From: Granulosicoccus sp.
Lineage (GTDB): Bacteria; Pseudomonadota; Gammaproteobacteria; Granulosicoccales; Granulosicoccaceae
Length of the DNA stretch: 44,823 bases
Direction: 5' to 3'
Assembly (NCBI GenBank): GCA_023300375.1
Contig: JALZWO010000117.1
Span: 1 to 44,823, forward strand
In this document: in pieces, positions 4,330 through 28,761 of the stretch
Numbering within the stretch: position 1 is the stretch's first letter
Layout of the letters: each line of letters begins with the position of its first letter
Notes under the pieces: generated by a model
Seen by the model: only the letters and a program-made list of their open reading frames with translations
What the model was told of the DNA's origin: nothing
Database searches by the model: none
Made by a program: the position numbers and the translations under genes

Positions 4330-4359
4330 TGAGTGATTTTATAACAATAAGATCACTCA
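4330..4359. terminator. Hairpin between convergent pilX-like and davB genes
   Basis: Perfect 8-bp inverted repeat TGAGTGAT / ATCACTCA with a 14-base loop, lying 45 bases after the pilX-like stop and touching the davB stop codon. Its place between convergent genes suits a bidirectional transcription stop. No long T-run follows on either strand, so it is a weak candidate. Confidence 0.35.
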
Positions 4360-6018
4360 GTCCAACAATTCAATGGGCCCCCATTGTGGGTATATATCGC
4401 CAGGACCTGGATTGTCTGGATGTGCACTACCGCCTAGGTGGTTCATCACACCCCACACAGCGTTCAGCGAGGAATGCACCGCGCCCTCCACCCAAGCGGG
4501 TGTCCAGCTAACGCCATCGCCCGCTATAAACACACCACGTTGTTCTACCGGTAGTTCTGCCTGCATAAACTGTCCAAACATGCGGCAGTTATATCGATAG
4601 TGGCCAGGCAGAGCACCTTTAAACGCGCCAAGAAAATTTCTATCGCTTTCCCAACTCACCGTAATGGGGTCACCCAAAATATGCTGTCGTATATCCACGT
4701 TCGGGTATATTTTTTCGAGTGCCGATAAGGCCAGCTCTACTCGCTGCTCAACCGGTAATGGCAACATTTTTAGTGCGTCGGTCATCCACGTGTAAGTAAG
4801 ACAAATGACGGCGGGCTTATCTGGCCCGTTATCGAAAAAATAGGTTCCACGCGTTAGGCGGTCGGTCAGAGTCATCGACATCACATCATGTCCTGTCTCT
4901 GGATTTTTATCTTTCCAAAACGGACGGTCGACCATGACAAAGGTTTTGGAGGCTTGCATATAGCGAGTGCGATCGAGAGCCATCCACAATTTTTGATCAA
5001 ATAGGTCTTCTTGAGTGTCGATCGCGGTTGTTAGCAAATGAGTTTGGCACGTAACGATAACTGCGCTGTATTCTTCGCAGCGCCCCCACTGATCTGTAAT
5101 TTGCGTGTTGGATTCTTTACGTGCGATGCGGGTGACACCCGGTCGAGTTGCACCACCGTTCAATAGACAAAGCGTAGTGCCTTTATCCCAATGAGTGATC
5201 GACTGGGGCTCATGTTGCCATAGTTTGTGCAACACTTGCTCCACACCGCCGACGATATAGCGCTGATCATCATCAAGCTCTGTAACGTTGACTCGCAGAA
5301 TTTCTAGCATTGAATTAGGAAAGTCAGAATCCCAACCGCCAGTGCCGAAGCCTACTTGCCCAAAGATCTCACGATGACGAAAAGACAGTGCCTGAAAGGC
5401 TTTGGAAGAGACGATGAAATCATAGAATGTGCGTTCATCCCAGTCTCGTACAATGGGATTCCAAATTGCTTTTATACGTGCTGGGTCTCGGTCACGAATC
5501 GCCTGTTTAAGCGCTGAGAACTGTAGGCTCTCTTCCAGTGCAGCATGGTAAGCCGCCGCCACTTCTTGGTAAATAAGCGGTAAATCGCTGAGTGTTTCGG
5601 CATAGTGTGTTTCACCTTCCAAATCAATAACAGTGGAGCCCGCCGCTGCTGTTAACGGATTAGGGAAAGGCCTGCTTTGTGCACCCACCTGATCCACATA
5701 GTGGTAGAAGCCAGTTGATGCTACAGGGAATCTCATTCCACCTAGCTCTGCGATAACATCAGTAGTGCCTTCGAAAACCTGAGAACGCAAGCGACCGCCA
5801 AATTGCCCAGACTCATAAACAATGGGGCGCAAGCCCATACGCATTAATTCATAGGCGGCAATGATGCCTGCAGCACCTGCACCAATTATCGCAACTTTGT
5901 CTCCATGCCTTGCAACCGGAATTTCACCCAAGCCAGCCGGGTGACCTATCCAGTCGTCGTAGGCAAAAGGAAAATCCGGACCAAAAGCGGTAACGGGGTT
6001 TTGAGTGGTCTGTGTCAC
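4357..6018 (-). CDS. davB: L-lysine 2-monooxygenase (DavB)
   Basis: FAD enzyme that oxidatively decarboxylates L-lysine to 5-aminovaleramide, the first step of the aminovalerate route. The protein matches my memory of Pseudomonas DavB over its whole length: FGPDFPFAYDDW at the start, the dinucleotide-binding GAGAAG (residues 46-51), GQFGGRLRSQ, ELGGMRFPV, GFGTGGWDSDFPNSMLE, DRPFWKDK and near the end GVFIAGDGVSWTPAWVEGAV. It belongs to the flavin amine oxidase family with tryptophan 2-monooxygenase. An upstream ATG (6117) would overlap davA by 89 bases; I chose GTG 6018 because GAGGAAG sits just upstream and it lies 10 bases after the davA stop, giving 553 residues, close to the family length. 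Phenylalanine or tryptophan monooxygenase activity is possible, but the davA neighbour favours lysine. Confidence 0.9.
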   Translation of the reverse strand: MTQTTQNPVTAFGPDFPFAYDDWIGHPAGLGEIPVARHGDKVAIIGAGAAGIIAAYELMRMGLRPIVYESGQFGGRLRSQVFEGTTDVIAELGGMRFPVASTGFYHYVDQVGAQSRPFPNPLTAAAGSTVIDLEGETHYAETLSDLPLIYQEVAAAYHAALEESLQFSALKQAIRDRDPARIKAIWNPIVRDWDERTFYDFIVSSKAFQALSFRHREIFGQVGFGTGGWDSDFPNSMLEILRVNVTELDDDQRYIVGGVEQVLHKLWQHEPQSITHWDKGTTLCLLNGGATRPGVTRIARKESNTQITDQWGRCEEYSAVIVTCQTHLLTTAIDTQEDLFDQKLWMALDRTRYMQASKTFVMVDRPFWKDKNPETGHDVMSMTLTDRLTRGTYFFDNGPDKPAVICLTYTWMTDALKMLPLPVEQRVELALSALEKIYPNVDIRQHILGDPITVSWESDRNFLGAFKGALPGHYRYNCRMFGQFMQAELPVEQRGVFIAGDGVSWTPAWVEGAVHSSLNAVWGVMNHLGGSAHPDNPGPGDIYPQWGPIELLD

Positions 6019-6028
6019 CGTAGCTTCC

Positions 6029-6826
6029 TCATGAGGTGTATAGCTCGCTGCGTAAGTCATGTAAATAAGGTGTTGCCTTACGCGCATCTTCAATGCTTTG
6101 ACGAGAGAGGGATGCAATAATTAACGCTTCGCCCTCTTGTGTTGCGCGTGCAATGTCTTCACCTAACGGGTCGCAAATACACGACAGACCACAGTAGGTA
6201 AATTCACCCTCACAACCCACATAGTTTGCATAAGCAATATAGATTGCGTTCTCCTGAGCACGGACAGGTACCATGTTGTTCGCTACGCTATAAAATGGCA
6301 CCATGTTGGCCGTAGGCGCAAGGATGAGTGTCGCGCCAGATTGAGCATAAAAGCGTGCGACCTCCGGAAACTCAATGTCGTAACAGATAGCCATAGCTAT
6401 TTGCCAACTTTTATAAGTAAAAGGCGTGCAAAGCACGGCTCCAGCAGAGAACTGGGCTCGATCAACATCACCATATAGATGAGTTTTTCGATAAACGCAC
6501 AAAGTTGCACCGCTAGGTTCTATGAAAGCCGCACTGTTATAGACAAGGTCGTCCTCAGCCAATTCTGGGAACCCAACCACTATGGCGATGTTGTGTGTTT
6601 TTGCCAATGCGGCGACTTGTTGCAGCATGTTTCCATCAATTTTTTGAGCGGCAGCGCGCACAGCTGGCACACCGATATTGTAGCCCGTTAAAAACATCTC
6701 GGGCGTAATCAGAATATCAGCCTGCTGTGCTGCAGCACGCTCTGCAGCCCTGCTAAGAGATTGTAGGTTGTTGGTCAGCGCATTATTGCCGCTAACCGGA
6801 GTTGTTTGCATGATGCACAGTTTCAT
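6029..6826 (-). CDS. davA: 5-aminovaleramidase (DavA), nitrilase superfamily
   Basis: Carbon-nitrogen hydrolase expected to convert 5-aminovaleramide to 5-aminovalerate and ammonia. At 265 residues it has the usual single nitrilase fold. The catalytic triad is visible: Glu43 in TPEMFLTGYN, Lys113 in YRKTHLYGD and Cys147 in AICYDIEFPE. It precedes davB by 10 bases on the same strand, so the two products act in sequence on lysine. The later genes (aminovalerate transaminase, glutarate semialdehyde dehydrogenase) are not in the window. Start ATG 6826 is the first Met and opens directly into the first beta strand (MKLCIMQTTP); the ribosome-binding site is weak. Another amide as substrate cannot be excluded on motif grounds alone. 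Confidence 0.87.
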   Translation of the reverse strand: MKLCIMQTTPVSGNNALTNNLQSLSRAAERAAAQQADILITPEMFLTGYNIGVPAVRAAAQKIDGNMLQQVAALAKTHNIAIVVGFPELAEDDLVYNSAAFIEPSGATLCVYRKTHLYGDVDRAQFSAGAVLCTPFTYKSWQIAMAICYDIEFPEVARFYAQSGATLILAPTANMVPFYSVANNMVPVRAQENAIYIAYANYVGCEGEFTYCGLSCICDPLGEDIARATQEGEALIIASLSRQSIEDARKATPYLHDLRSELYTS

Positions 6827-16261: not shown

Positions 16262-17632
16262 TCAGGGACGCTGGTGGCTGGGGAGCTCAATGACGTAACT
16301 ATCGACCGTGCCTGAATCGTACCAATCAGACCCGTAAAGCAGGCGTGTTCCGCTAGGACTGATGGTGACGTGTGGTTCGCCAAAATAGGGCCTGTATTCT
16401 CCATTCTTCGCCAGCTTGCCAGTTGAACGGTGATGAGCCAAGCGACACACTTCAGTGTCGGATGGATCAGTATTGACCAGATATATTTCGCTGAAGAAGG
16501 TGGTGGCTTTTTTCTTCCCATCCAGAAATTTCAGTTGCTCTGGGTAGCCTACACTCGACATTGCGACCCAACCCGGTTTTTTGTATGCCTGCGATGAAAT
16601 GTGTGTGCTACTCGTTGTGTACGGGTAGCCTCCGCTTTCGCCAATGACTGTTCGACACTTGCCCGTTTCGAGGTTGTACTCGGTAAGATGCCCAACACCG
16701 CGATCAGGGTCACCGTCGCAGCCCTTGGGTGCATGATCAAACGTCACTTGATACAGCGCATCCTGCCCATCCCACGTTTTCCCCAGGTTGGCATGTTCAT
16801 GGAATTTTTTCATATCGAGCTTGTGCACTACCGACTTTAAATCTGGTGTCAGTATTTTCCCCTGAAGCCAAATGTATTTACTCGAAGCTGTCGCGATGGG
16901 TGCGCTCCACGAGTTCCAGTCCGTTCCCGGTCCCATGCGCATACTGTGAGTCTCACCTGTGCTGATTCTATACGTCACGCCAAAGTAGTGCTTTTCCTCG
17001 GACGAACGGTCCCAGCAACGAAACCCGAAAAGGTCATCATCCAGCGACTGCATGTGGACATCGCCACCGGGATGCGTGACCGTGCCACCGCAAATGTTAG
17101 AAAAATCCTTGATGAGTGTCCTCTCTTTCGCTTCAACATTGACGCTGTATAGCTTGCCGCCCTCACGATGAGCTTTGCTGGAGTAATACAGTATGTCCGG
17201 ATCCGTGTGGCTCCAGAATACGTCTTCGAGGTCACTGGGAGTAATATCCAGTTTACGTATCACTTCATAAGAATGACCATCTAGAAGATAGTGTCCAGAT
17301 TGACTGCCAGTGCGATAGAGCACCATACGGCTTTCATCAGCATTCCATGCTTGTACAGTGCTATAGACCGGCTTGAATACTTCGCCAGGCTGGCTATCAG
17401 TTATGCGTGTTACTCGAGTGCCGAAAACAGGTTCGCGATAAGCTGCCATGTGGGGAGGCTTGGCAACCAAGGGAATCGCTACCGGATCATTGTGTGTGAT
17501 CAAACCTTCGCATAAGCTGGCTACAGCGAGGTTCGGAACAAGCAATAAACCACCTATGAACGGAGCAATCCGCAGACGAGCAACATTGCGGCCTCTATCT
17601 GATAGGCGTGCACTGCGTAGTTGATGGGGCAT
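16262..17632 (-). CDS. Secreted beta-propeller-like protein
   Basis: 456 residues. A basic N-terminus (RSARLSDRGRNVARLR) precedes a hydrophobic stretch (APFIGGLLLVPNLAVAS), so export is likely. The body repeats propeller-blade phrases: STVQAWNADESRMVLYRTG, TDPDILYYSSK, GKLYSVNVEAKE, GYLTEYNLETGKC-like (GHLTEYNLETGKCRTV), and GEPHVTISPSGTRLLYGSDW, each a strand plus a turn with N/D/S-P-x-G. At least eight Cys suggest disulfides. The general look is close to the oligogalacturonate-lyase (PL22)/TolB-like propellers, but I cannot place catalytic His residues with certainty (HEHAN, FGEPH are candidates). A carbohydrate role would fit the nearby GT61 and PL14-like genes; this is inference. Confidence 0.6.
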   Translation of the reverse strand: MPHQLRSARLSDRGRNVARLRIAPFIGGLLLVPNLAVASLCEGLITHNDPVAIPLVAKPPHMAAYREPVFGTRVTRITDSQPGEVFKPVYSTVQAWNADESRMVLYRTGSQSGHYLLDGHSYEVIRKLDITPSDLEDVFWSHTDPDILYYSSKAHREGGKLYSVNVEAKERTLIKDFSNICGGTVTHPGGDVHMQSLDDDLFGFRCWDRSSEEKHYFGVTYRISTGETHSMRMGPGTDWNSWSAPIATASSKYIWLQGKILTPDLKSVVHKLDMKKFHEHANLGKTWDGQDALYQVTFDHAPKGCDGDPDRGVGHLTEYNLETGKCRTVIGESGGYPYTTSSTHISSQAYKKPGWVAMSSVGYPEQLKFLDGKKKATTFFSEIYLVNTDPSDTEVCRLAHHRSTGKLAKNGEYRPYFGEPHVTISPSGTRLLYGSDWYDSGTVDSYVIELPSHQRP

Positions 17633-18067: not shown

Positions 18068-20056
18068 ATGAAAGTTCAACTTCTAGCACAATTAGTTTCT
18101 GAGCGCATCAGTGAACTAGCACCAGATAAAACGCGCACCACATCGTTACTGGCCATGTCTCTCCTTCTCACCGCGTGCGGATCATCGGGCGGCGACAGTA
18201 GTAACGGTGCATCTGCCACGACACAGCCCAGTGATAACGAAAGCATCACAATCGGCATTCCTATTGAAAACGACACCACGCCATCAACACCTCCCAGCTC
18301 TAGCGACGATGATAGCGTGACAACTCCGCCTGCTGAACCAGTCACGCCAGTTGATCCGCCTGCTGAACCAGTCACCCCAGTTGATCCTCCTGCTGAACCA
18401 GTCACGCCAGTTGATCCGCCTGCTGAACCAGTCACGCCAGTTGATCCGCCTGCTGAACCAGTCACGCCAGCTGATCCTCCTGCTGAACCAGTCACGCCAG
18501 CTGATCCTCCTGCTGAACCAGTCACGCCAGCTGATCCACCTGCTGAACCAGTCACGCCAGCTGATCCGCCTGCTCAACCAGTAGCTCCAGTTGAACCACC
18601 AGCGCCTGTCATTACATCAACTCTAGTAACGTTCGACATCACGGTACCTGTGCATGTCTCAGATGAGTTGCAGCTGGATGTATTCTCGGGAGACAACGAA
18701 TTACAAGCGGCCTGGGTGGTTGATGAAACCTGGACGGTTACTGATACCTTGCCAGCAAACTCAGTGTCAGAACTACGCGTTGTTTTCTATGATCACTTTG
18801 GTTCAACCACACTGGCAACTTATGATTCAACTGTGGAAACAGCAGAACGGGAAGCTCAGGATTTTACGGTTAACGCCGACGAATTTGACTCAACCATCTG
18901 GGATAACGATGGCGATGAGATAAGCAACCTGGATGAATTGATTGCAGGTACAGATCCAGACTTTGCTGAACTTGTTGGCGCACCCAACGAGCCACCTGGC
19001 TTAACCAGTGTTCAATACTCTGGTTTCGATTTGGAACTTTTCTGGTCGCGGGGCACAGATGACGACGGCGTGGTTATTGGCTACGACATTTTTCGTGATG
19101 ACGAACAAATCACTGATCGCTTGGATGCCTTGAGTTTCTATGATGGCAGTGTTCAGCCAGAAACCGACTACACCTACGACATCTATTCGGTAGACAACGA
19201 TGGTCTTCGAAGTCGTGCAGCAACACTTTTGATTACAACGCCTGAAGATACCCCAGTAAACGGCCCAGCGAATGCCGCTTCACTGACCGGTGGTGGCAGC
19301 GCCTCTTGGTTTATAAGCGATGGCTTAACAACCACTAGCGGCACAGGACCTAGCGGTTCGTGCTCTTACTCTGGAGGCGCTGGTTCTGGTGTGGGCATTA
19401 GTGATTCCAGACTGCCGAACAATGGTGATGCCTTCGACCTGGGATCACTGATGTGGGTTAACGGCGTGCAAGTGGGCGGGTTTTTGCGATCAGCGACAGC
19501 TTCAACGTCTAACTTTGCTTCTGTACCTATCGCTAACTTACAAGTCCACACAGAATTTCATGCAATCAGTAGCTTGCCTGTTTTGAGAAACCTGACCTCT
19601 TTCACTAATGACACGAGCGAAGATATTTTCGTTGTCATTAATTGGGCTTCTAACTTTGGAGCAGATAGTGGCAATCGCATCATCACAACCAGTAGTGGCG
19701 ACAACACGTTTGCAGCTAACGACCGATGGGCGATAACTGATGACGCTAGCGATGGTAGTCGTGATCCTGCGAACACCACTGTATTCTACGGCCCAGACTC
19801 ACCAGTATCCATGTCTGTATTTACCAACACTTCAGTGTTCAATTGCCACGGCTCAGAGGGTCTAACAGCACGTATTGATGTCACAATACCAGCCGGTGAA
19901 ACTCGAGCCTTGATGCTTTTCCATGGAATGTCGGTAACACAAGACAACGCTCGTAGCTTGGCTAGCATGTTCGATGACACGCCAACACTTGCTAGTCCAT
20001 TGACAGAGGGGTTGACTGAAGCACAGTTACTTAATGTGATTAACTGGAGCTACTAA
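18068..20056 (+). CDS. Large lipoprotein with Pro-rich repeat and FN3-like domain
   Basis: 662 residues. After a long charged leader comes SLLAMSLLLTAC with a lipobox Cys at 37, then a Ser/Gly/Thr-rich linker. Residues about 85-178 are eight copies of a ten-residue unit (EPVTPVDPPA, later EPVTPADPPA) plus one degenerate copy, a stiff wall- or envelope-spanning spacer. Then a beta domain (TFDITVPVHVSDELQLDVF), an EF-hand/thrombospondin-type turn DNDGDEISNLDELIAGTDPD that probably binds calcium, and an FN3-like domain (PPGLTSVQYSGFDLELFWS...GYDIFRDDEQ...YTYDIYSVDNDG). The C-terminal 250 residues are unassigned. AAGG(TAGG) lies before ATG 18068. Surface display is inferred; ligand unknown. Confidence 0.75.
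   Translation: MKVQLLAQLVSERISELAPDKTRTTSLLAMSLLLTACGSSGGDSSNGASATTQPSDNESITIGIPIENDTTPSTPPSSSDDDSVTTPPAEPVTPVDPPAEPVTPVDPPAEPVTPVDPPAEPVTPVDPPAEPVTPADPPAEPVTPADPPAEPVTPADPPAEPVTPADPPAQPVAPVEPPAPVITSTLVTFDITVPVHVSDELQLDVFSGDNELQAAWVVDETWTVTDTLPANSVSELRVVFYDHFGSTTLATYDSTVETAEREAQDFTVNADEFDSTIWDNDGDEISNLDELIAGTDPDFAELVGAPNEPPGLTSVQYSGFDLELFWSRGTDDDGVVIGYDIFRDDEQITDRLDALSFYDGSVQPETDYTYDIYSVDNDGLRSRAATLLITTPEDTPVNGPANAASLTGGGSASWFISDGLTTTSGTGPSGSCSYSGGAGSGVGISDSRLPNNGDAFDLGSLMWVNGVQVGGFLRSATASTSNFASVPIANLQVHTEFHAISSLPVLRNLTSFTNDTSEDIFVVINWASNFGADSGNRIITTSSGDNTFAANDRWAITDDASDGSRDPANTTVFYGPDSPVSMSVFTNTSVFNCHGSEGLTARIDVTIPAGETRALMLFHGMSVTQDNARSLASMFDDTPTLASPLTEGLTEAQLLNVINWSY
18331..18600 (+). repeat. 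30-base tandem repeat, nine units
   Basis: Nine consecutive 30-base units (TGCTGAACCAGTCACGCCAG then TTGATCCGCC or variants); the first eight differ at only a few bases, the ninth is degenerate. They encode the ten-residue Pro-rich unit of the lipoprotein. Near identity at DNA level points to recent expansion and possible length variation. The repeat is free of stops in several frames, which creates false ORFs on the other strand. Confidence 0.95.
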
Positions 20057-20565: not shown

Positions 20566-22158
20566 ATGTGTGAATTTACTATTCCCAATAGAGCTAGAGT
20601 TGCTGCATCCAGCGAATACAGTTGTATGATTCCTGATGACTTTAGTTTTGCGACAGCCAAGTATCCAGACAATATCGCGCTTTGGAGTGAAGATCAGGTA
20701 CTCAAGTACAAGGAGTTAGATCAACTCACAACATCACTAAGTGCTTGGCTGAACAATCGCTTGCCTGGGCATGGACATCGTATTGCGGTACTGATACCCA
20801 AGTCTACTGAGGCAATAATCGCGATCATTGCGGTGCTTAAATCAGCCAACACGTATGTACCCCTCAGTGAAAGCTGGTCCGATGGGCGAATATCGAGAAT
20901 ATGTGAGGATAGTCAGTTTAGTTTTGCACTGTCATCCATCGATATGTCAGGTTTTCAAGTACCCGAAAACAACACGCTAATGACAGGTACGCCTCAATGG
21001 CGCGAAGCAATCCACTACCCATCAACCAGCAACTACAAAGCACCCATTGTTGCTGAAGCATCGTTGGCCTACATACTCTACACCTCGGGCTCAACTGGCA
21101 CACCTAAAGGTGTTTGCGTGTCTCACAGAGCCGCATATCACTTTCCGAATTGGGCGAAATCCGAATTCGAAATCAGCGATCAGGATCGTGTAGCTTCCGT
21201 TTCCCCGCTCACATTCGATTTAACAACTTTTGATCTATTTGCCACCTTTGCAGCTGGAGCCACCCTATACCTTGTGCCAGATAAGCTTAAAGTCTTTCCT
21301 GCGCGCTTATCAGAATTTTTACAACATCATAAAATTAGTGTCATTTACGCAGTGCCATCAACATTGATTTTGCTTTTGCAACGTGGAAAGCTAGACCATC
21401 GAAACCTGGAGTCAATAAAAACTGTGCTGTTTGCTGGCGAAGAGTTTCCTGTTGCACAATTCAAGCAATTAAGACAATTGCTACCAGCACACATCAACTA
21501 CTGTAATTTATACGGACCAACAGAAACGAACGTGTGCAGCTTTTATCGTGTGCCTGAAAAATTAGACGTGACTACAATGCCTATTGGTTACGCTCTACCT
21601 GATACATTATTGTTTCTACGCAATGAATCTACAGATTCAAGCAATGTAACTACTGGAGAGCTCTGCGTTGCTGGTCCAACAGTAATGCGTGGATATCATG
21701 CTCACAATGATTCAGCTGCCAGTTATTTTTTAAATGATCCACGTGATATAGAAACCCGAGCGTACGCTACTGGCGATCAGGTCAGTCTTTCTATCAATGG
21801 CATTTTAAATTTCCACGGAAGGCTTGATAAAATGGTCAAGATATGGGGATATCGAGTTGAGCTAGGTGAAATTGAATCGTGCTTGCGAGAGTTAGACAAC
21901 GTGACGCAGGCCGCAGTCGTAAAACGCCAAAAACCAGCATCAGGCGGCGAAGAATTAGTCGCATTTGTAAGCCTGCAACACAACATAGCCGACAACGATG
22001 AAAGTGCATCCAATGTATTTAGCAAAAAAGCTTTTGCGCACTGTAAAAACAATTTGCCACCCTACATGGTCCCAAGAAAAATCAGTATTCTTGAAATACT
22101 ACCACTTAACGGTACTGGGAAAATTGATCGCTTACAGCTTGAAAAGCTTGCCAACTAA
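20566..22158 (+). CDS. Stand-alone adenylation enzyme, predicted L-prolyl-AMP ligase
   Basis: 530-residue free adenylation domain. Core motifs: A3 LYTSGSTGTPKG (171-182), A4 FDLTTFDLF, A5 NLYGPTETNVC, A7 YATGDQ, A8 GRLDKMVKIWGYRVELGEIE, A10 NGTGKIDR with Lys519. Aligned to GrsA-PheA by motif, the specificity residues are D218 L219 F222 Y261 L288 A290 L315 V323 C324 K519. From memory, the L-proline ligases PltF and RedM of pyrrole pathways read D-L-L-Y-L-A-L-V-C-K, one change away; proline as substrate is therefore a strong inference. It would load the carrier protein encoded 31 bases downstream. ATG 20566 has only a weak site (GTAAGAA); Met21 is an alternative start close to the family N-terminus. 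Facing genes supply the oxidase and NRPS. Confidence 0.85.
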   Translation: MCEFTIPNRARVAASSEYSCMIPDDFSFATAKYPDNIALWSEDQVLKYKELDQLTTSLSAWLNNRLPGHGHRIAVLIPKSTEAIIAIIAVLKSANTYVPLSESWSDGRISRICEDSQFSFALSSIDMSGFQVPENNTLMTGTPQWREAIHYPSTSNYKAPIVAEASLAYILYTSGSTGTPKGVCVSHRAAYHFPNWAKSEFEISDQDRVASVSPLTFDLTTFDLFATFAAGATLYLVPDKLKVFPARLSEFLQHHKISVIYAVPSTLILLLQRGKLDHRNLESIKTVLFAGEEFPVAQFKQLRQLLPAHINYCNLYGPTETNVCSFYRVPEKLDVTTMPIGYALPDTLLFLRNESTDSSNVTTGELCVAGPTVMRGYHAHNDSAASYFLNDPRDIETRAYATGDQVSLSINGILNFHGRLDKMVKIWGYRVELGEIESCLRELDNVTQAAVVKRQKPASGGEELVAFVSLQHNIADNDESASNVFSKKAFAHCKNNLPPYMVPRKISILEILPLNGTGKIDRLQLEKLAN

Positions 22159-22189
22159 CAAATCATAAACACATGATAAATAGCTCTAG

Positions 22190-22465
22190 ATGACACAACT
22201 AACCACACATGAACGCATTATCAATTTGATATGCAACGACGTTGCCGTAGGTTTATCCGTTGATGAAGTCTCCAACGAGTCGTCATTGTTTGATGATCTG
22301 AGCCTCGATTCTATCCAACTGGTTGAACTTTTCACCAAGTTGGAGGCAGAATTTTTAATCGAACTTGATGACGACGATTTAGACTTCCAACATTTTGCAT
22401 CAGTTAATTCTCTTGCCAGTTTTGTAGATACTATGGTGACAGCTGGCGGTGGGGATGGTGCTTAG
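22190..22465 (+). CDS. Free-standing peptidyl carrier protein
   Basis: 91-residue carrier protein. The phosphopantetheine site is Ser41 in DDLSLDSIQLVEL, with the acidic helix II after it (KLEAEFLIELDDDD) that carrier-protein partners dock on. It follows the adenylation gene by 31 bases, so the pair resembles PltF-PltL and RedM-RedO, where proline is held as a thioester while a flavoenzyme oxidises it to a pyrrole. The activating phosphopantetheinyl transferase is not in the window. The stop codon lies inside the start of a further short coupled frame (22458-22577). Confidence 0.88.
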   Translation: MTQLTTHERIINLICNDVAVGLSVDEVSNESSLFDDLSLDSIQLVELFTKLEAEFLIELDDDDLDFQHFASVNSLASFVDTMVTAGGGDGA

Positions 22466-22577
22466 AAAACCGCTGAGATGGTTGGATAAACCGCATTTTC
22501 AAAAACAAGTGTTCTTTGTCGATTTTGCGGGTGTTGCTTTAACTCCTGTTGGCCGAGGCAACAAACCTATCCACTAA
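22458..22577 (+). pseudogene. Short frame coupled to the carrier gene, possible truncated gene
   Basis: GTG 22458 overlaps the carrier stop in the form GTGCTTAG, with GGTGGGGAT upstream as ribosome-binding site: the architecture of a translationally coupled third gene. It encodes only 39 residues (VLRKPLRWLDKPHFQKQVFF then VDFAGVALTPVGRG and a stop) and its end runs into the convergent hydrolase gene at 22539. It may be the 5' stub of a gene lost by deletion. The phrase DFAGVALTP faintly recalls class V aminotransferase N-termini, too weak to name. It may also be chance. Confidence 0.35.
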
Positions 22578-23408
22578 CCAAGTTGATATCGAATCGGTCA
22601 ATAGCTGTCTATCTTGTGATAATGGAAAAACGTGGTCTGCGTCCTCCAGATAGAGTATTTGTATATTGTCACCAAACGTGATTTCAGGAAATGCATCCAC
22701 ATGCTGATCTTTATAATTATATGGCCAACTACCAGTAAAGATGCATAGATTGCTTGCATCCCTGTCAATGAATGTTTGATACTCCAGTGCGGTTCTTTTC
22801 CGATCAGGCACTGTCCATCTGAAAGGAATAGTGATTGATTCGAAGTTTGGTATCGACGTTTTTTTTCGAATTTTATCGACATATTCGCTTATGTTAGACA
22901 GTCTAGATTTCCACGCGCGTTTTTTAAATAACTGGGGTATCTTTCGATGTACTACTTCATTAACATAATAACGCGGTGTCTTAAAGTAATAGCCATCGAT
23001 GCCAACGGCGCCCACGATACGCGTATCTGCCAGCATGGCTCGGTGAGCATTATCAGCTCCTGTGCATATCCCCATCACAACAAATTTTTGATCGTTGAAC
23101 CTGCTTTGCAGATAATCCATTGCTGCTTTAACATCTTCAATTTGCTGTTTGTCTCTTGCAAGACTGTCACTACGCCTTTCACTATCACCAATGCCTGATA
23201 TGTCAAAGCGAAAGCTCTTGAATCCGATGCTACTAAAGTGTCTGGCTAATCGCACGTATAAGCGATAAGGTCCCACGTTAGGCAGTAAGCCAGAGTTCAG
23301 CAATAGCACAACAGGGCGCCTTGTCAGGTCCTTATTTAACTTTTTAGCATCCGTGTAAACACCAACTAAAGCCGACTCTGTACCAAAATCACAAGCAATT
23401 TCACGCAT
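22539..23408 (-). CDS. Alpha/beta hydrolase with Cys nucleophile (thioesterase-like)
   Basis: 289-residue alpha/beta hydrolase. The nucleophile elbow reads MGICTGADNA, with Cys115 where Ser is usual; His259 in EDADHVFPLS is the likely catalytic His, and FRFDISGIGDSE is the strand-4 region. Its start ATG 23408 overlaps the NRPS stop (ATGCGTGA), so the two are made together and it probably acts on the NRPS-bound intermediate: release, proofreading or acyl transfer. The Cys elbow and small size recall the 'hydrolase 1' that accompanies exosortase clusters (as I remember, G-x-C-x-x-A). Cys nucleophiles are also known in dienelactone hydrolase and in the thioesterase of obafluorin. No signal peptide; cytoplasmic. 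Confidence 0.75.
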   Translation of the reverse strand: MREIACDFGTESALVGVYTDAKKLNKDLTRRPVVLLLNSGLLPNVGPYRLYVRLARHFSSIGFKSFRFDISGIGDSERRSDSLARDKQQIEDVKAAMDYLQSRFNDQKFVVMGICTGADNAHRAMLADTRIVGAVGIDGYYFKTPRYYVNEVVHRKIPQLFKKRAWKSRLSNISEYVDKIRKKTSIPNFESITIPFRWTVPDRKRTALEYQTFIDRDASNLCIFTGSWPYNYKDQHVDAFPEITFGDNIQILYLEDADHVFPLSQDRQLLTDSISTWLVDRFVASANRS

Positions 23409-26400
23409 CTACTTTATCCATGATGCATCTAACTATAGTAAACACACTTTTTCCAGGCAACCAAGCCAGTAAATCGTCATGATTTTGAATAGACGATATA
23501 TTGTCGTTAACCTGTTCAAACACCAAGCGTTCGGTCACACGATTAAGACGTTCTGCTAAGGCCGTAAAGTGCGCAGTTTGTTGATTAATAACTAGATGCA
23601 CAGTTGCACAGCTTGTTAGAAGTGGGCCATTGAGTAAATCTAGTTTCTCCAGATCACGTCGTATGTTGTCAGTGCAATGAAACCCTAAAATTTCAAGATT
23701 AGATTGATTGACAATATTTTTCTTGATCGCTTTTGAATTCTCTATTGAATGCAAGTACCGGTTTTCGAATAAATTAATAAACTCACCACTACTGATAACT
23801 GGCTCCCACAGAATAAATTTTTCAACTGACACGTTTGACAGGCTAGCTGCAAGAGTTGCTCCGTAACGAAAGCCTACGATTGATAGTTTGCTAAAGCCTG
23901 ACACTTCAATCAATTTTTGAGCTGCGGTATTTATATCGTGTTGCCAACGCTCTGGACTACCGTCTTCGTCTTCACCCAAGGAATTGCCACACCCAAAATA
24001 GTCAAACCGCAAAACATAATAACCTTCCGAGGCGAGTAAGGAGGCCAGCCGGTGATATCCCCATGCAATGTTGTTAGCTTCAGTAAATATTGAATTACAT
24101 AGTAGTACCGCGCCACGTGGGCTTTGAGCTTGCGACGGCTCATGCAGTCGTGCATACAACTCATCGTTGGCAAAGAAGAATGTTGTCATTGACGGCAGAG
24201 ATTGTTTGTTTGGCGAGTTAACACACTCCACAGTTTCATCATCAAAATCTTGCAATAACTCGCGAATCGTACCTGACGCCATAGCGACAGGATCTATTTT
24301 GATATGCAATTCGCTTCGAATTCTGGACAACACTTGCATAGCGAGCAGCGAATGCCCGCCAAGATCGAAAAACGTTTGATTTACCGGTACCGTTTCAGTT
24401 TGCAGTACATCGGTCCAAATCTCAGCTACCGCCTTTTCCAGCCGCGTTTTTGCTGTCAACAAAGTTGAATTTGTGTTCACACCTTCCACTACTGATATTT
24501 TTTTGGACTGCCTGTCTAACTTTCCATTGGGTGTCAGCGGTAGCGCGTCCAGATAAATCAGGCTTTGTGGAACCATGTAAATAGGTAGTGACTGTTTCAG
24601 GCTATCGCGTAGCTGGTCAATCATCTCTTTTACAGGTTCGTCCGTCTCAAAACAGGCGACTAAACGCTGATCCCCATTACGATCTAAAAGAACGGTAGCC
24701 ATAGCTTGTTTTACAGCGGGGTAAGCATTCATTTGAAATTCAATTTCACCCAACTCAATCCGGCGCCCGCGCACCTTGACCTGACTATCAAGCCTGCCAA
24801 TGCATTCAATGTTGCCATCCGAACGATACCTTGCCGCATCTCCAGTGGCATAAATCCGCTCTTCGGCGTGAAATGGATTCTGAGTATATTTTTCTCGGGT
24901 TAGCGTTTCTCGCCCTAGATACCCAATCGTCACTCCAGCACCTCCAATGTACAACTCCCCCACCCCTCCCGGACACACAAGTTGCTTGTGCTCGTCTAAG
25001 ATATATAAGACGGTATTATCAATAGGCTTGCCAATGGGGATACGAGACTCTGTCTTGGTCACTTGATAACAGCTCGACCAAACGGTTGTCTCTGTTGGGC
25101 CGTACATATTCCACAGTTCACCGGTTCGCACACGAAGCTCATCAGCTAGATCAGGTGGCATAGCTTCTCCGCCACACAAGCCCTTGAGCGATGCGTTACC
25201 ACGCCAGCCAGTGTTGATGAGCATTCGCCACGTTACTGGGGTGGCTTGCATTACAGTCACCTTTTCACTTATCAAAAGCTGTGAAAGACGTCCCCCATCA
25301 ACCGCATCATTCCGAGAGGCCAGAATACAGGTAGCACCGCAAAGCAAAGGTAGCCATATCTCGAGTACCGCTATGTCGAACGATAATGTAGTAACCGCAA
25401 GCAAGCGATCTTCATCGCTTAGGCCAGGCCTCTTTTGCATACTGCAAAGAAAATTAACCACATTTTTATGACTGACTGAAACGCCTTTCGGCTTACCTGT
25501 AGAGCCAGATGTATAAATGAGGTAAGCGGTGCTATCAGAACTGTGACTCCTTGGTGTCGGCAGGGCCAATTCGCTCAAATTGTTTATCTCAACCTGGAGT
25601 TCGTCGAGCACAAGAGCCTTAGCGCCATTATTGGGAAAACGTTTTAGTGTGTCCGAATGGCAAACGAGAAAGCAAGTTTCCGAATCACTCATCATATGGC
25701 TGATGCGACTATCGGGATACTCATGATCAATTGGCAGATAAGCCGCTCCCGCCTTAAGAATTGCCAGTGCAGCTAGAACCATATCAATCGATCGATGTAA
25801 GCATATTGCAATTACATCGCCAGGCTTAACTCCTGATTGCTGTAGATAACAAGCCAATTGATTAGAGCGTGTATTCAACTCGCGGTAAGTTAGCTGTGTA
25901 CCTTCCGATCTAAGTGCCACCGCTGTTGGTACTAATTCACATCGATTAACTATGAGTTCATTAATTGTTTTTTCAGCTGGGAAATTCTGCGTAGTCTCAT
26001 TGTATTCCAGAGTAAGCTTGTGTTTTAACGCATCGTCAATTAACGTCAGATTGTTGAGTTTTGTTGTCGGTTTTTTTACTAGCGCTTTGAGTAGCACAAT
26101 ATATTTGTCTAGCAACCAATCCATCTTGGCGCTATCAAAAAGTGAGCTGCGGTATTCAGCTTGTATAAAACACTGACCTGCACTTTCACGAATTGTAAAA
26201 GTTAGATCATATCGAGCGCGGCAATTTTTCAGCTGAATACTTTCTATTACTATACCTTCGAAATCCAAACCACTTTCTTGATCAACAAGGTGTGAGAAGC
26301 GTACATCGAAGAACGGATTACGTTGATAGTTTCGCTCCTCGTGGAGCTCTTCAACGAGTGCTTCGAAAGCTATATCAGAGTAGCGATAGGCGTTAAAACA

Positions 26401-27432
26401 TGATTTCTGAACGGCTTTGAGAATTTCGTAAAAATCTTGCTCACGATCCAATGTGGTTCGTAAGACCAAGGTATTGAGTAAAAAACCGATCATTTTGTCG
26501 GCTCCCAGGGAGCGTCTATCGGCATAGTGTGTACCGACGGGAATGTCTGTTTCACCAGTCCACAACGACAATAATATTTTACACACTGAGAGCATCGCCA
26601 TAAAAAAACTGGCTTGCTGTTCATGAGCGATAGCTCTCATAGCAATGACTAGATCGTCAGGCAATGGTTTTTCTAGACGAACACCTGCGCTTGACGGTAT
26701 GGACTCTCTATCATGATCAAGCAGCAAGCTTATTGGCTTACTGTCGTTGAGTTTTTTTGTCCAGTATTTGTGTTGTCTGGCAATAGCAGCGCCGTGGTTG
26801 CGATCCTCACTAAAACGTACGTAGTCTGAAAATTGAGCCGCCAACGGTGCAAGCGTTAGTGGCTTGCGGTGCGCAAAATGATTGTAAAATGCGCCAAGTT
26901 CGAGATAGAGAATTGATTTGGATAGGTGGTCAAAAATAGTATGGTGAGCCACAAACACAAATAAGTGTTCGTCACCTGCATCGGTCGAAAACAGGGTACA
27001 CCTGAATAAAGGCGCCTCATGTAAGTCGAATGGCTGGTTTATTTGATTGTTCAATACATCTTGCTGTTGTGCGTCTGACAACTGAGCAGGTATTCTTTGC
27101 TGACTTAGCAGCTGAAAATGGTTTTTCGTTTCTGTAGTGGAAATTGTTTGAATTAACCGTGTAAGACGGTCAGATTCAAGTCGGAAGCTGGTTCTTAGGG
27201 TTTCATGTCTATTGACAACAGCTCTTACGCTAGCCTCAAGAGCCGTCGTGTTAACTTGCCCTGCAAATCTGAAATTACAGCTAACGTTGTAAGCTGGATT
27301 TTCTGGATTGATACAATGTAGAACATACAACCCCTCTTGTGCACGAGTGCTGCTTGCGAAACAAATGTCTTCGCTCTGGTTTTGTAAATTCATAGCTAAA
27401 CGTGTACCGTCACCATTGTCCTCGAGATGCAT
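23401..27432 (-). CDS. NRPS, C-A(Gly)-PCP with C-terminal hydrolase domain
   Basis: 1343-residue one-module NRPS. C domain about 20-460: RAQEGLYVL, RHETLRTSF, HHTIFDH (163-169; His164 is the catalytic second His, Gly of HHxxxDG is His), IGFLLNTLVLR, RNPFFDVRFS. A domain about 480-980: LIYTSGSTGKPKG, YGPTETT, YATGD, NGKLDR with K971; pocket residues D686 I687 L690 Q729 L752 G754 M776 V784 W785, a glycine code. PCP 990-1065 with Ser1028 in LGGHSLLAM. C-terminal domain from about 1080 is an alpha/beta hydrolase fold (VLRFDYFGCGNS) whose elbow is GFRYGATLA, Arg1189 replacing Ser, so it cannot be a normal thioesterase. No upstream A domain exists: the donor must come in trans, presumably from the free carrier protein. 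ATG 27432 lies 24 bases after the flavoenzyme stop and lacks a clear ribosome site; Met14 is an alternative. Confidence 0.93.
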   Translation of the reverse strand: MHLEDNGDGTRLAMNLQNQSEDICFASSTRAQEGLYVLHCINPENPAYNVSCNFRFAGQVNTTALEASVRAVVNRHETLRTSFRLESDRLTRLIQTISTTETKNHFQLLSQQRIPAQLSDAQQQDVLNNQINQPFDLHEAPLFRCTLFSTDAGDEHLFVFVAHHTIFDHLSKSILYLELGAFYNHFAHRKPLTLAPLAAQFSDYVRFSEDRNHGAAIARQHKYWTKKLNDSKPISLLLDHDRESIPSSAGVRLEKPLPDDLVIAMRAIAHEQQASFFMAMLSVCKILLSLWTGETDIPVGTHYADRRSLGADKMIGFLLNTLVLRTTLDREQDFYEILKAVQKSCFNAYRYSDIAFEALVEELHEERNYQRNPFFDVRFSHLVDQESGLDFEGIVIESIQLKNCRARYDLTFTIRESAGQCFIQAEYRSSLFDSAKMDWLLDKYIVLLKALVKKPTTKLNNLTLIDDALKHKLTLEYNETTQNFPAEKTINELIVNRCELVPTAVALRSEGTQLTYRELNTRSNQLACYLQQSGVKPGDVIAICLHRSIDMVLAALAILKAGAAYLPIDHEYPDSRISHMMSDSETCFLVCHSDTLKRFPNNGAKALVLDELQVEINNLSELALPTPRSHSSDSTAYLIYTSGSTGKPKGVSVSHKNVVNFLCSMQKRPGLSDEDRLLAVTTLSFDIAVLEIWLPLLCGATCILASRNDAVDGGRLSQLLISEKVTVMQATPVTWRMLINTGWRGNASLKGLCGGEAMPPDLADELRVRTGELWNMYGPTETTVWSSCYQVTKTESRIPIGKPIDNTVLYILDEHKQLVCPGGVGELYIGGAGVTIGYLGRETLTREKYTQNPFHAEERIYATGDAARYRSDGNIECIGRLDSQVKVRGRRIELGEIEFQMNAYPAVKQAMATVLLDRNGDQRLVACFETDEPVKEMIDQLRDSLKQSLPIYMVPQSLIYLDALPLTPNGKLDRQSKKISVVEGVNTNSTLLTAKTRLEKAVAEIWTDVLQTETVPVNQTFFDLGGHSLLAMQVLSRIRSELHIKIDPVAMASGTIRELLQDFDDETVECVNSPNKQSLPSMTTFFFANDELYARLHEPSQAQSPRGAVLLCNSIFTEANNIAWGYHRLASLLASEGYYVLRFDYFGCGNSLGEDEDGSPERWQHDINTAAQKLIEVSGFSKLSIVGFRYGATLAASLSNVSVEKFILWEPVISSGEFINLFENRYLHSIENSKAIKKNIVNQSNLEILGFHCTDNIRRDLEKLDLLNGPLLTSCATVHLVINQQTAHFTALAERLNRVTERLVFEQVNDNISSIQNHDDLLAWLPGKSVFTIVRCIMDKVDA

Positions 27433-27456
27433 TCATCAAGAACGCTTAGCGGCAAA

Positions 27457-28761
27457 CTACCAGTACGTTTCTGACATGCGAGTCATATCGAAACCCAAGG
27501 CCGACTTTCCCGCATAGAGCACACATTCGTCACTGGTTGCTGGCATTAGCCCTCCACAACGAGCATCGCGATAGTGTCGTTCAAGAGGAAGTCGTTTTGC
27601 TATTGTTGCTCCACCACACAGCCGCATGGCCTGAGAGGCTAAATGTGGTGCTAACTCCCCAACTAGGTACTTTGAGCGGTGCACCGCTTCATTGGTTTCT
27701 ATCGTGCCCGGGTTTTCATCCACTTGTCTGGCTGCATCGTAGACCACGGTGCGGCATGATTCCATTGCTATGGAAAGCTCACCCACTTGATGCTGGACTT
27801 GTTCGCTGCTGACTACGGATTCCTGTGTGCCAGGCTTGTTTTTGTTTTTCAAGTAATTTGTCATGAAATTAAATGTGACGCTGCATATACCTAAGTAGAC
27901 ACCGATATATCCTGCAATCGTCCAGTGAGGCTCTCTAACCAGCTTTAGCATACCTAACCCTTGTGTACCGAGGAACAAGCGGTTGGTAGGTACAAACACG
28001 TCTTTTAAGTGCATCATGTTTGTGTTGGTAGCTCGCATTCCAAGCGTGTCCCAGATGACTTCGATTTCAATCCCCGGGTTCTCAGCCTCTATAACGAAAA
28101 ACGATAGATCAGGAAATTCACCTTGTGCGCCTTCTTTTTTCGCAGCGGTGACGTAGTAGTCAGCAAAGCCAGACATTGACACCCACGATTTGAGCCCATT
28201 GATAATATACCCCTCGTTGGTTTTGCGATAAGTGGATTTCAACTTACTGAAGTGCGCACCGATGCCTGGTTCTGAGTTTGCTGAAGCGAAGAGCTTTTGA
28301 TTTTCAACAATTTCCTTAAATGCCCAATCTCTGAAATTGTTAAGCACTTCACCTCTTTTGCCTGAAAGAGCGCCGACCTTGGCTTCTGCTAATGTGCCAG
28401 CCGCGATGTTATGCATATTAAAAGCCAGAGCGGTAGAGGCATCTCCCATAGCAAGTTGCTCTAGTGCTTTGGTGTACGTCAAAAAATCTGCACCAATTCC
28501 GCCCTTATCTTTTGGAACCATAAGAGAGAGCAAGCCGCTTTCGCGAAGTTCCTGAAAATTCTCAACAGGAAATTCCCGTGTAGCATCGTAATGTGCGGCA
28601 CGTTCGCTAAATCCTATCGACAGATTTTTGCAGTGATCAATTATTTCACTCGAACTCGAATCAAAATTTAACGGCAGAGCACGTCGCTCCACTAGCGGGC
28701 TGAGTTGACTCATATTCTTAAAAGCTCTAGGTCTGAATGGCGTCTGGACAACGCGTTTCAT
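27457..28761 (-). CDS. Acyl-CoA-dehydrogenase-like flavoenzyme of the NRPS locus
   Basis: 434-residue acyl-CoA dehydrogenase fold protein, likely FAD-dependent. Visible: GLLSLMVPKDKGGIGADFLTY (N-terminal helical domain), ALAFNMHNIAAGTL, FASANSEPGIGAHFS and GYIINGLKSWVSMSGFADYY (FAD-binding beta domain), TLGMRATNTNMMHLKDVFVP, and AMRLCGGATIAKRLPLERHYRDARCGGLMPATSD (C-terminal helical domain). It heads the flavoenzyme-NRPS-hydrolase operon. In pyoluteorin and prodigiosin pathways a protein of this fold (PltE, RedW) oxidises prolyl-S-PCP to pyrrolyl-S-PCP, and the proline-type ligase and carrier nearby make that role likely here. It is longer than typical family members (about 380) at the N-terminus. 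Met17 (28713) is an alternative start; both ribosome sites are weak. I could not assign the catalytic base by eye. Confidence 0.82.
   Translation of the reverse strand: MKRVVQTPFRPRAFKNMSQLSPLVERRALPLNFDSSSSEIIDHCKNLSIGFSERAAHYDATREFPVENFQELRESGLLSLMVPKDKGGIGADFLTYTKALEQLAMGDASTALAFNMHNIAAGTLAEAKVGALSGKRGEVLNNFRDWAFKEIVENQKLFASANSEPGIGAHFSKLKSTYRKTNEGYIINGLKSWVSMSGFADYYVTAAKKEGAQGEFPDLSFFVIEAENPGIEIEVIWDTLGMRATNTNMMHLKDVFVPTNRLFLGTQGLGMLKLVREPHWTIAGYIGVYLGICSVTFNFMTNYLKNKNKPGTQESVVSSEQVQHQVGELSIAMESCRTVVYDAARQVDENPGTIETNEAVHRSKYLVGELAPHLASQAMRLCGGATIAKRLPLERHYRDARCGGLMPATSDECVLYAGKSALGFDMTRMSETYW

Follow-up and report, generated by a model that had tools for sequence, protein, structure and literature searches.

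A cassette of five genes was analyzed at positions 20566–28761 of a 44,823-nt stretch of DNA from the marine bacterium Granulosicoccus sp. (GCA_023300375.1, a draft genome of 4.58 Mb, G000; contig JALZWO010000117.1; hereafter, the window). According to the list of open reading frames (ORFs), it encodes a free adenylation (A) domain, a free peptidyl carrier protein (PCP), an alpha/beta hydrolase (hydrolase 1), a nonribosomal peptide synthetase (NRPS), and a flavoprotein resembling acyl-CoA dehydrogenases (ACADs). The cassette probably specifies a compact two-residue NRPS pathway in which N-oxygenated proline would be joined to glycine, with a split hydrolase pair releasing the product. The predicted product is likely N-hydroxyprolyl-glycine, its nitrone, or a cyclized (cyclic hydroxamate) or transferred form. 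The initial annotation of this DNA had proposed pyrrole-2-carbonyl-glycine; the pyrrole part of that proposal is not supported, and N-oxygenated prolyl-glycine is better supported by the sequence comparisons given below.

Flavoprotein and the predicted oxygenation of proline

In dehydrogenases of the ACAD fold, a glutamate (Glu) abstracts the alpha-proton, as is stated for AnaB and Bmp3 (PMC10849742). The flavoprotein of the cassette (27457–28761, minus strand; Pfam ACAD domains N, M, and C) had Glu at neither of the two known base positions: Thr281 (codon 27919–27921, minus strand) was aligned to the Glu that isovaleryl-CoA and prolyl-PCP dehydrogenases use in catalysis, and Pro407 (codon 27541–27543, minus strand) to the medium-chain-type catalytic Glu, with Thr and Pro found in all five orthologues. 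The Glu at the first position was kept in all eight rows of the prolyl-dehydrogenase-type clade (the names "prolyl dehydrogenase", "ACAD1", and "ACAD2" were assigned from neighboring genes). Grouping of the cassette and prolyl-dehydrogenase-type proteins into one clade was rejected by the approximately unbiased (AU) test (p = 2.96 × 10−5, log-likelihood 77.7 lower, 37 rows), and the cassette flavoproteins formed one clade with the ACAD2 rows of the chm-like loci described below (support 96/93). It should be noted that the first tree left out six near-identical rows (L090, L091, L092, L094, L095, and L101), the tree of the AU test further left out L003, L004, L005, L031, and 15 isovaleryl-type rows, and the tree giving the 96/93 grouping left out three more isovaleryl-type rows. 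Thus, the flavoenzyme phylogeny, which had been set beforehand as a test capable of refuting the pyrrole proposal, placed the protein far from prolyl-PCP oxidases. A special tie to the ACAD of amino acid:carrier protein ligase loci, considered because both proteins are devoid of the Glu, was rejected (21–25% identity, separate branch).

The best relatives outside the cassettes were the ACAD2 proteins of chm-like loci (37–38% identity, 263–292 bits), whereas the prolyl dehydrogenases scored 54–105 bits. The best plasmid match (252 bits, 36.5% identity over 97%; next match 187 bits) came from two Streptomyces plasmids, where it is the latter of a pair of neighboring ACADs in the gene order alpha/beta hydrolase, A domain, acyl carrier protein (ACP), ACAD1, ACAD2, and flavin reductase, the last lying directly 3' of ACAD2 in both. 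The ACAD2 search of 398 genomes (gammaproteobacterial family f160) yielded three strong loci (399–460 bits), all in genus g277; each g277 locus contained an A domain, an ACP, ACAD1, ACAD2, an MFS-like ORF (assigned by eye), and a hydrolase. A search of genus g278 detected ACAD2 in none of 25 genomes. In all five chm-like loci, ACAD1 kept the Glu and ACAD2 had Met in its place. In the two loci compared with family models, the best model was RedW for ACAD1 (186 and 217 bits) and FadE16 for ACAD2 (114 and 134 bits), the latter, as Rv1679/FadE16, also being the top model for the window protein (167 bits, cut-off 600). A helix motif, REPHW-[TM]-x-[AS]-GY (also given as VREPHW[TM]), was common to the flavoprotein and all five ACAD2 proteins.

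In gene content and sizes, the chm-like loci match chmF–J, to which they were likened by description: ChmF, ChmG, ChmH, ChmI, and ChmJ are of 264, 395, 383, 92, and 517 aa (PMC11085572), and the products of the chm-like loci, in the same order, are of 259–265, 393–395 (414 for the longest ORF of one locus), 375–386, 86–87, and 511–515 aa. ChmG, in which Met replaces the Glu, N-oxygenates prolyl-S-ChmI before the ring is oxidized by ChmH; ChmG alone gives mainly species consistent with N-hydroxydehydroproline, superoxide dismutase and catalase shift the balance towards the less oxidized product, and clusters of this kind have been reported from 97 organisms, including Pseudomonas fluorescens (PMC10849742). 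The two-ACAD sets of the chm-like loci also include pantothenate-type genes, namely, an annotated aspartate decarboxylase gene panD in Streptomyces (L118:12180–20926) and a PanB-like ORF, recognized by eye, in the g277 genomes (L134:4401–11458).

By its clade, its lost Glu, and its gene context, the cassette flavoprotein would N-oxygenate prolyl-S-PCP as ChmG does, giving N-hydroxyprolyl-S-PCP or its two-electron-oxidized form. Reduced flavin would be supplied by a general cellular reductase; four flavin-reductase-domain matches were found in the genome of origin.

Several observations weigh against this assignment. The prolyl-dehydrogenase group of the AU test was completed after an earlier tree, from which five of its eight rows had been assigned. 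The RedW (101.9 bits) and PigA (~102 bits) models scored above the monooxygenase models HsaA (71 bits) and DszC (69 bits). Among PDB chains, a short-chain acyl-CoA dehydrogenase (124 bits) scored above 3m9v (94.7 bits), which we take to be a KijD3-type N-oxygenase, 6cxt (88.9 bits), and 5zw0 (62.5 bits). Of these, 6cxt is Bmp3 (PMC10849742). The AlphaFold2 model built from four sequences reached a pLDDT of 37, and a flavin reductase was not seen among the cassette genes. The likeness to ChmG runs via the ACAD2 relatives and not via the ChmG sequence, and the identity of 37% to ACAD2 fixes the fold and the clade but not the choice between N- and C-oxygenation. The flavoprotein has Thr where ChmG and ACAD2 have Met, and the A-domain code of the Streptomyces locus L118 differs (DLFIAGLACK). 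Finally, a Glu-bearing ACAD1 stands beside ACAD2 in all five chm-like loci and none is present in the cassette, so a ChmG-type step would need to be of use by itself. As regards membership in the prolyl-PCP dehydrogenase clade, the score against NF045652 was 101.9 bits; its cut-off of 650 is strict, being passed in none of 369 genomes, and the Glu-bearing enzymes of the relatives (303 and 344 bits) likewise remained under it.

An oxygenase that hydroxylates carbon, or that acts at the glycyl or dipeptidyl stage, is unlikely. It would agree with the next clade out, comprising 17 proteins (28–34% identity, Met and Pro at the two Glu positions in all 17), whose genes lie near a flavin reductase in five of nine neighborhoods by model and in a sixth by eye only (none was seen in the other three) and whose loci look catabolic by eye; however, the flavoprotein lies nearest to the ACAD2/ChmG-like clade, which is accompanied by a Pro-type A domain in all three g277 loci.

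Because the cassette contains no dehydrogenase partner, the ring is predicted to halt before pyrrole, and the pathway should stop at N-oxygenated proline in at least two of the five cassette genomes. An N-hydroxypyrrolyl-glycine, for which N-oxygenation would come first and a prolyl-type dehydrogenase from another locus would then complete the ring in trans, is rather improbable. A Glu-bearing dehydrogenase of this type does occur on another contig in three of the five genomes (G027, G009, and G026); however, in G027 and G009 it is accompanied by an A domain of its own (codes DMLYVAHVCK and DMLYIAVQCK, respectively), an ORF resembling a PCP by eye, and NRPS genes (L147:7107–15000 and L148:1–14648), and in G026 it lies on a 3 kb contig (L149:1877–3003). 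In the ACAD1 search of the five genomes, the cassette contigs gave no match beyond the cassette flavoprotein itself (in G027 and G009), and the best matches in the genome of origin and G008 reached only about 100 bits, the former falling into the isovaleryl-type group; all assemblies are drafts, so the absence of the dehydrogenase is weak evidence. Pyrrole formation by the flavoprotein itself, acting as a prolyl-PCP dehydrogenase, is highly improbable. An ACAD-fold protein encoded together with a free PCP and a Pro-type A domain does recall PltF/PltL/PltE, and the RedW model matched, but the FadE16 model scored higher, the Glu was absent in all five orthologues, the joint clade was rejected, and the prolyl-dehydrogenase-type rows were among the weakest relatives.

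Assembly of the dipeptide and the hydrolase pair

The free A domain (20566–22158, plus strand; Pfam AMP-binding, 234 bits) had the pocket code DLFYLALVCK by alignment. Its best single-A-domain PDB chain was the L-prolyl-carrier ligase 6o6e (233 bits); multidomain chains totaled higher (linear gramicidin synthase, whose two A domains scored 159 and 163 bits; 8xjz_C, 310 bits in total, unsplit by domain). The code was the same in four of the five cassettes (DLFYIALVCK in G009) and identical in all three plasmid-borne A domains encoded next to a Glu-bearing ACAD (Mycetohabitans L072, S. clavuligerus L073, and Microvirga L074), as well as in the three g277 loci. The free PCP (22190–22465, plus strand; 91 aa; Pfam PP-binding, 38.1 bits) bears the serine in a DSI motif. 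By code and homology, the free A domain would activate L-proline and load it onto this carrier.

The NRPS (23401–27432, minus strand; 1343 aa, orthologues 1330–1370 aa) has the Pfam-based domain order C-A-PCP-hydrolase 2. Its condensation (C) domain (26014–27348, minus strand; 262.9 bits) reads HHTIFDH, the G of the usual HHxxxDG being replaced; the A domain (24520–25938, minus strand; 307 bits) has the code DILQLGMVWK, which we take to be of the Gly type; and the carrier domain (24250–24432, minus strand; 48.4 bits) contains GGHSL. The code was found in four of the five cassettes (DILQLGMIWK in G027), and the core motifs HHxxxD, A3, and GGHSL were intact in all five. The C domain would move the N-oxygenated prolyl group onto glycine held on the NRPS carrier domain.

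Much of the initial annotation stood: the free A domain, the free PCP, the ACAD-like flavoenzyme, and the C-A-PCP NRPS are all real ORFs at the claimed place, with Pfam cut-offs passed for AMP-binding, for PP-binding, for Condensation, AMP-binding, and PP-binding in the NRPS, and for the ACAD N, M, and C domains, and both ten-residue codes were reproduced by alignment. The NRPS-fused hydrolase domain and the separate gene of a Cys-nucleophile hydrolase had gone unnamed there. Its two-residue scheme also holds as a prediction from the codes, with proline assigned to the free A domain and glycine to the NRPS. No match was obtained in a literature search on the pocket-code strings, and a search for an N-hydroxyprolyl- or pyrrole-carbonyl-glycine product matched only work on cartilage and a chalkophomycin preprint.

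The hydrolase 2 domain (23401–24207, minus strand; residues ~1076–1343), which is alpha/beta-hydrolase-like, occupies the NRPS C-terminus, the place expected for a thioesterase, and has Arg at the nucleophile position (GFRYGA). Hydrolase 1 (22539–23408, minus strand) has Cys there (GICTGA). The best models for the pair were the exosortase A-associated hydrolases 1 and 2, both scores being below cut-off (TIGR03100, 62.9 bits, cut-off 168.45, and TIGR03101, 87.7 bits, cut-off 202.75, respectively); against Pfam Hydrolase_4, hydrolase 2 scored 25.2 bits, just below the cut-off of 27. In a phylum-level search, relatives of hydrolase 1 were detected in 22 of 398 genomes, that of origin included (E ≤ 1 × 10−8), and each of the 22 loci outside the window had a hydrolase 2 relative next to hydrolase 1 or fused to it (the weakest in L068, 141.8 bits). 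Cys was present in hydrolase 1 in all 29 aligned sequences, and the hydrolase 2 position was occupied by Arg in 21 of 29 and by Gly in 7 of 29, the remaining one, L068, reading GVRFGA (Arg); the 29 sequences are not independent because the five cassettes are among them. No match to hydrolase 2 was found in the phage collection.

The pair adjoins NRPS genes in L075, L077, L079, and L080. The last A domain before it is Gly-like in L077 (DILQLGLIWK) and L080 (DILQIGVIWK), and the codes of L075 (DIAQWGVVWK), L079 (DALWLGGTFK), and L083 (DPHTQGLVAK) are not clearly so; hydrolase 1 may thus perhaps act on glycyl-type thioesters. In Azospirillum-type loci, the pair is fused as one protein and accompanied by an annotated amino acid--[ACP] ligase and a Glu-less ACAD; three genomes (L076, L082, and L084) have this set as ACP, Glu-less ACAD, amino acid:carrier protein ligase, DUF1839, GH2-like protein, and fused hydrolase 2-1.

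From the co-occurrence and the fusions, hydrolase 2, devoid of the nucleophile, is the putative docking partner and hydrolase 1 the putative catalyst, which would release the dipeptidyl thioester in trans. Against this stands the fact that we know of no system in which the role of the hydrolase 1/2 pair has been proven. Literature searches on exosortase hydrolases and with the PDB codes 5gj7/5z8t gave no match, and one combining exosortase, TIGR03100/TIGR03101, and carrier protein found nothing bearing a TIGR term.

It is also conceivable, although not likely, that the tandem hydrolase is an acyltransferase moving the dipeptide onto a glycan, with no free acid released. In Variovorax (L075), polysaccharide export genes come after the pair; exosortase A systems gave the family models their names (L070 passes both cut-offs and L068 one); and glycan genes occur near the cassette, namely, a GT61 gene in the window, two GT2 genes and a UDPGT gene in G008, and genes of GINT1-type proteins in G009 and G026. 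However, these genes vary between genomes within the fetched flanks, the GT61 gene of the window is 4.9 kb away, and the ORF list of G027 (a 10.4 kb contig) contains no glycan gene.

Within the preferred pathway of N-oxygenated prolyl-glycine, a bolder and quite improbable proposal is that of a hitherto unseen class of minimal metallophores: N-hydroxyprolyl-glycyl-S-PCP would close via the N-OH nitrogen to a six-membered N-hydroxy-diketopiperazine, being closed, or let close, by the Cys hydrolase and its NRPS-built, nucleophile-less partner, a two-protein offloading unit that would replace the thioesterase and recur, fused or split, in Pseudomonadota. If the N-oxygenated prolyl-glycine pathway is correct, it would employ prolyl N-oxygenation, described in 2024 as a stage on the way to N-hydroxypyrrole (PMC10849742), with no oxidation of the ring, and its five genes would be few enough for full reconstitution. 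The role of the exosortase A-type pair on carrier-bound substrates would become testable, because the NRPS, whose substrate is predicted, itself contains one half of the pair. Moreover, the combination of a Pro A domain, a PCP, and an ACAD would in itself be no sign of pyrrole unless the ACAD Glu is kept.

Distribution, gene layout, and flanks

A flavoprotein orthologue (E ≤ 1 × 10−60) was found in 5 of the 57 genomes searched, including that of origin (4 of 27 in the genus, 1 of 9 in other genera of the family, and 0 of 21 outside it); these five (G000, G008, G009, G026, and G027) belong to one family, Granulosicoccus and its kin. Each of these genomes contained the whole set of five genes, clustered in the same convergent layout. 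A contig scan with the flavoprotein yielded three loci, all cassette members (two Granulosicoccus metagenome-assembled genomes (MAGs) and one Granulosicoccaceae MAG). The ratios of nonsynonymous to synonymous substitution rates (dN/dS) relative to the G008 orthologues were 0.044 for the flavoprotein, 0.123 for hydrolase 1, 0.152 for the NRPS, 0.168 for the hydrolase 2 domain, 0.183 for the free A domain, and 0.199 for the PCP; values of 0.04–0.20 indicate that the cassette genes are maintained.

The genes form two convergent operons, the free A domain and PCP genes on the plus strand and the flavoprotein, NRPS, and hydrolase 1 genes on the minus strand, with 73 bp between the stop ends of the PCP and hydrolase 1 genes and an 8-bp overlap of the hydrolase 1 gene with the end of the NRPS gene. 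By comparison with the orthologues, later starts than those listed are suggested, probably at 28713 for the flavoprotein, near 27393 for the NRPS, and about 20 codons downstream for the free A domain.

A phosphopantetheinyl transferase gene adjoins the cassette in G009. The flanking genes are mostly unlike between genomes, with CHRD-like and LrgAB-like neighbors (named by eye) common to G008 and the window. Enzymes of the GINT1_N type (37% identical) are encoded next to the cassette in G009 (L016:8438–10177) and about 6 kb off in G026 (L013:16472–18181); no relative of them was found in the window. Elsewhere in the window are a predicted lipoprotein in which PPAEPVTP(V/A)D is repeated eight times (18068–20056; no Pfam match at E 0.01), an ORF likened by eye to amine oxidases (without an NCBIfam match at E 1 × 10−20) overlapping a nitrilase-family ORF (4357–6826), and a 456-aa protein (16262–17632) with no Pfam match at E 0.01, whose likeness to oligogalacturonate lyase is by eye only.

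Comparison with known systems

As described in PMC10849742 and PMC11085572, the chalkophomycin and hormaomycin systems (ChmF–ChmJ and HrmK–HrmN, respectively) share with the cassette a Pro-specific free A domain, a free carrier, and a Glu-less ACAD-fold oxygenase acting on the prolyl-S-carrier, the action in the cassette being predicted. The cassette differs in having no ChmH-type dehydrogenase and in its dedicated Gly module fused to a pseudo-hydrolase; with the hydrolases in the place of ChmF, hydrolase 1 gave no match at E 1 × 10−3 and hydrolase 2 matched at 26 bits (E = 8 × 10−4). PltF/PltL/PltE and RedM/RedO/RedW have in common with it the free Pro A domain and the free PCP, whereas its flavoprotein lies outside the prolyl-PCP-dehydrogenase-type clade and is devoid of the catalytic Glu. 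The exosortase A-associated hydrolases 1 and 2 are likewise paired, with Cys in the first and Arg in the second, but the cassette proteins score under the curated cut-offs, and hydrolase 2 is fused to an NRPS. Meanwhile, the Azospirillum-type loci share a free carrier, aminoacyl activation, a Glu-less ACAD, and the hydrolase 2/1 pair, while differing from the cassette in that an amino acid--[ACP] ligase replaces the A domain, the pair is fused, DUF1839 and GH2 proteins are present, and the ACAD belongs to the separate branch noted above.

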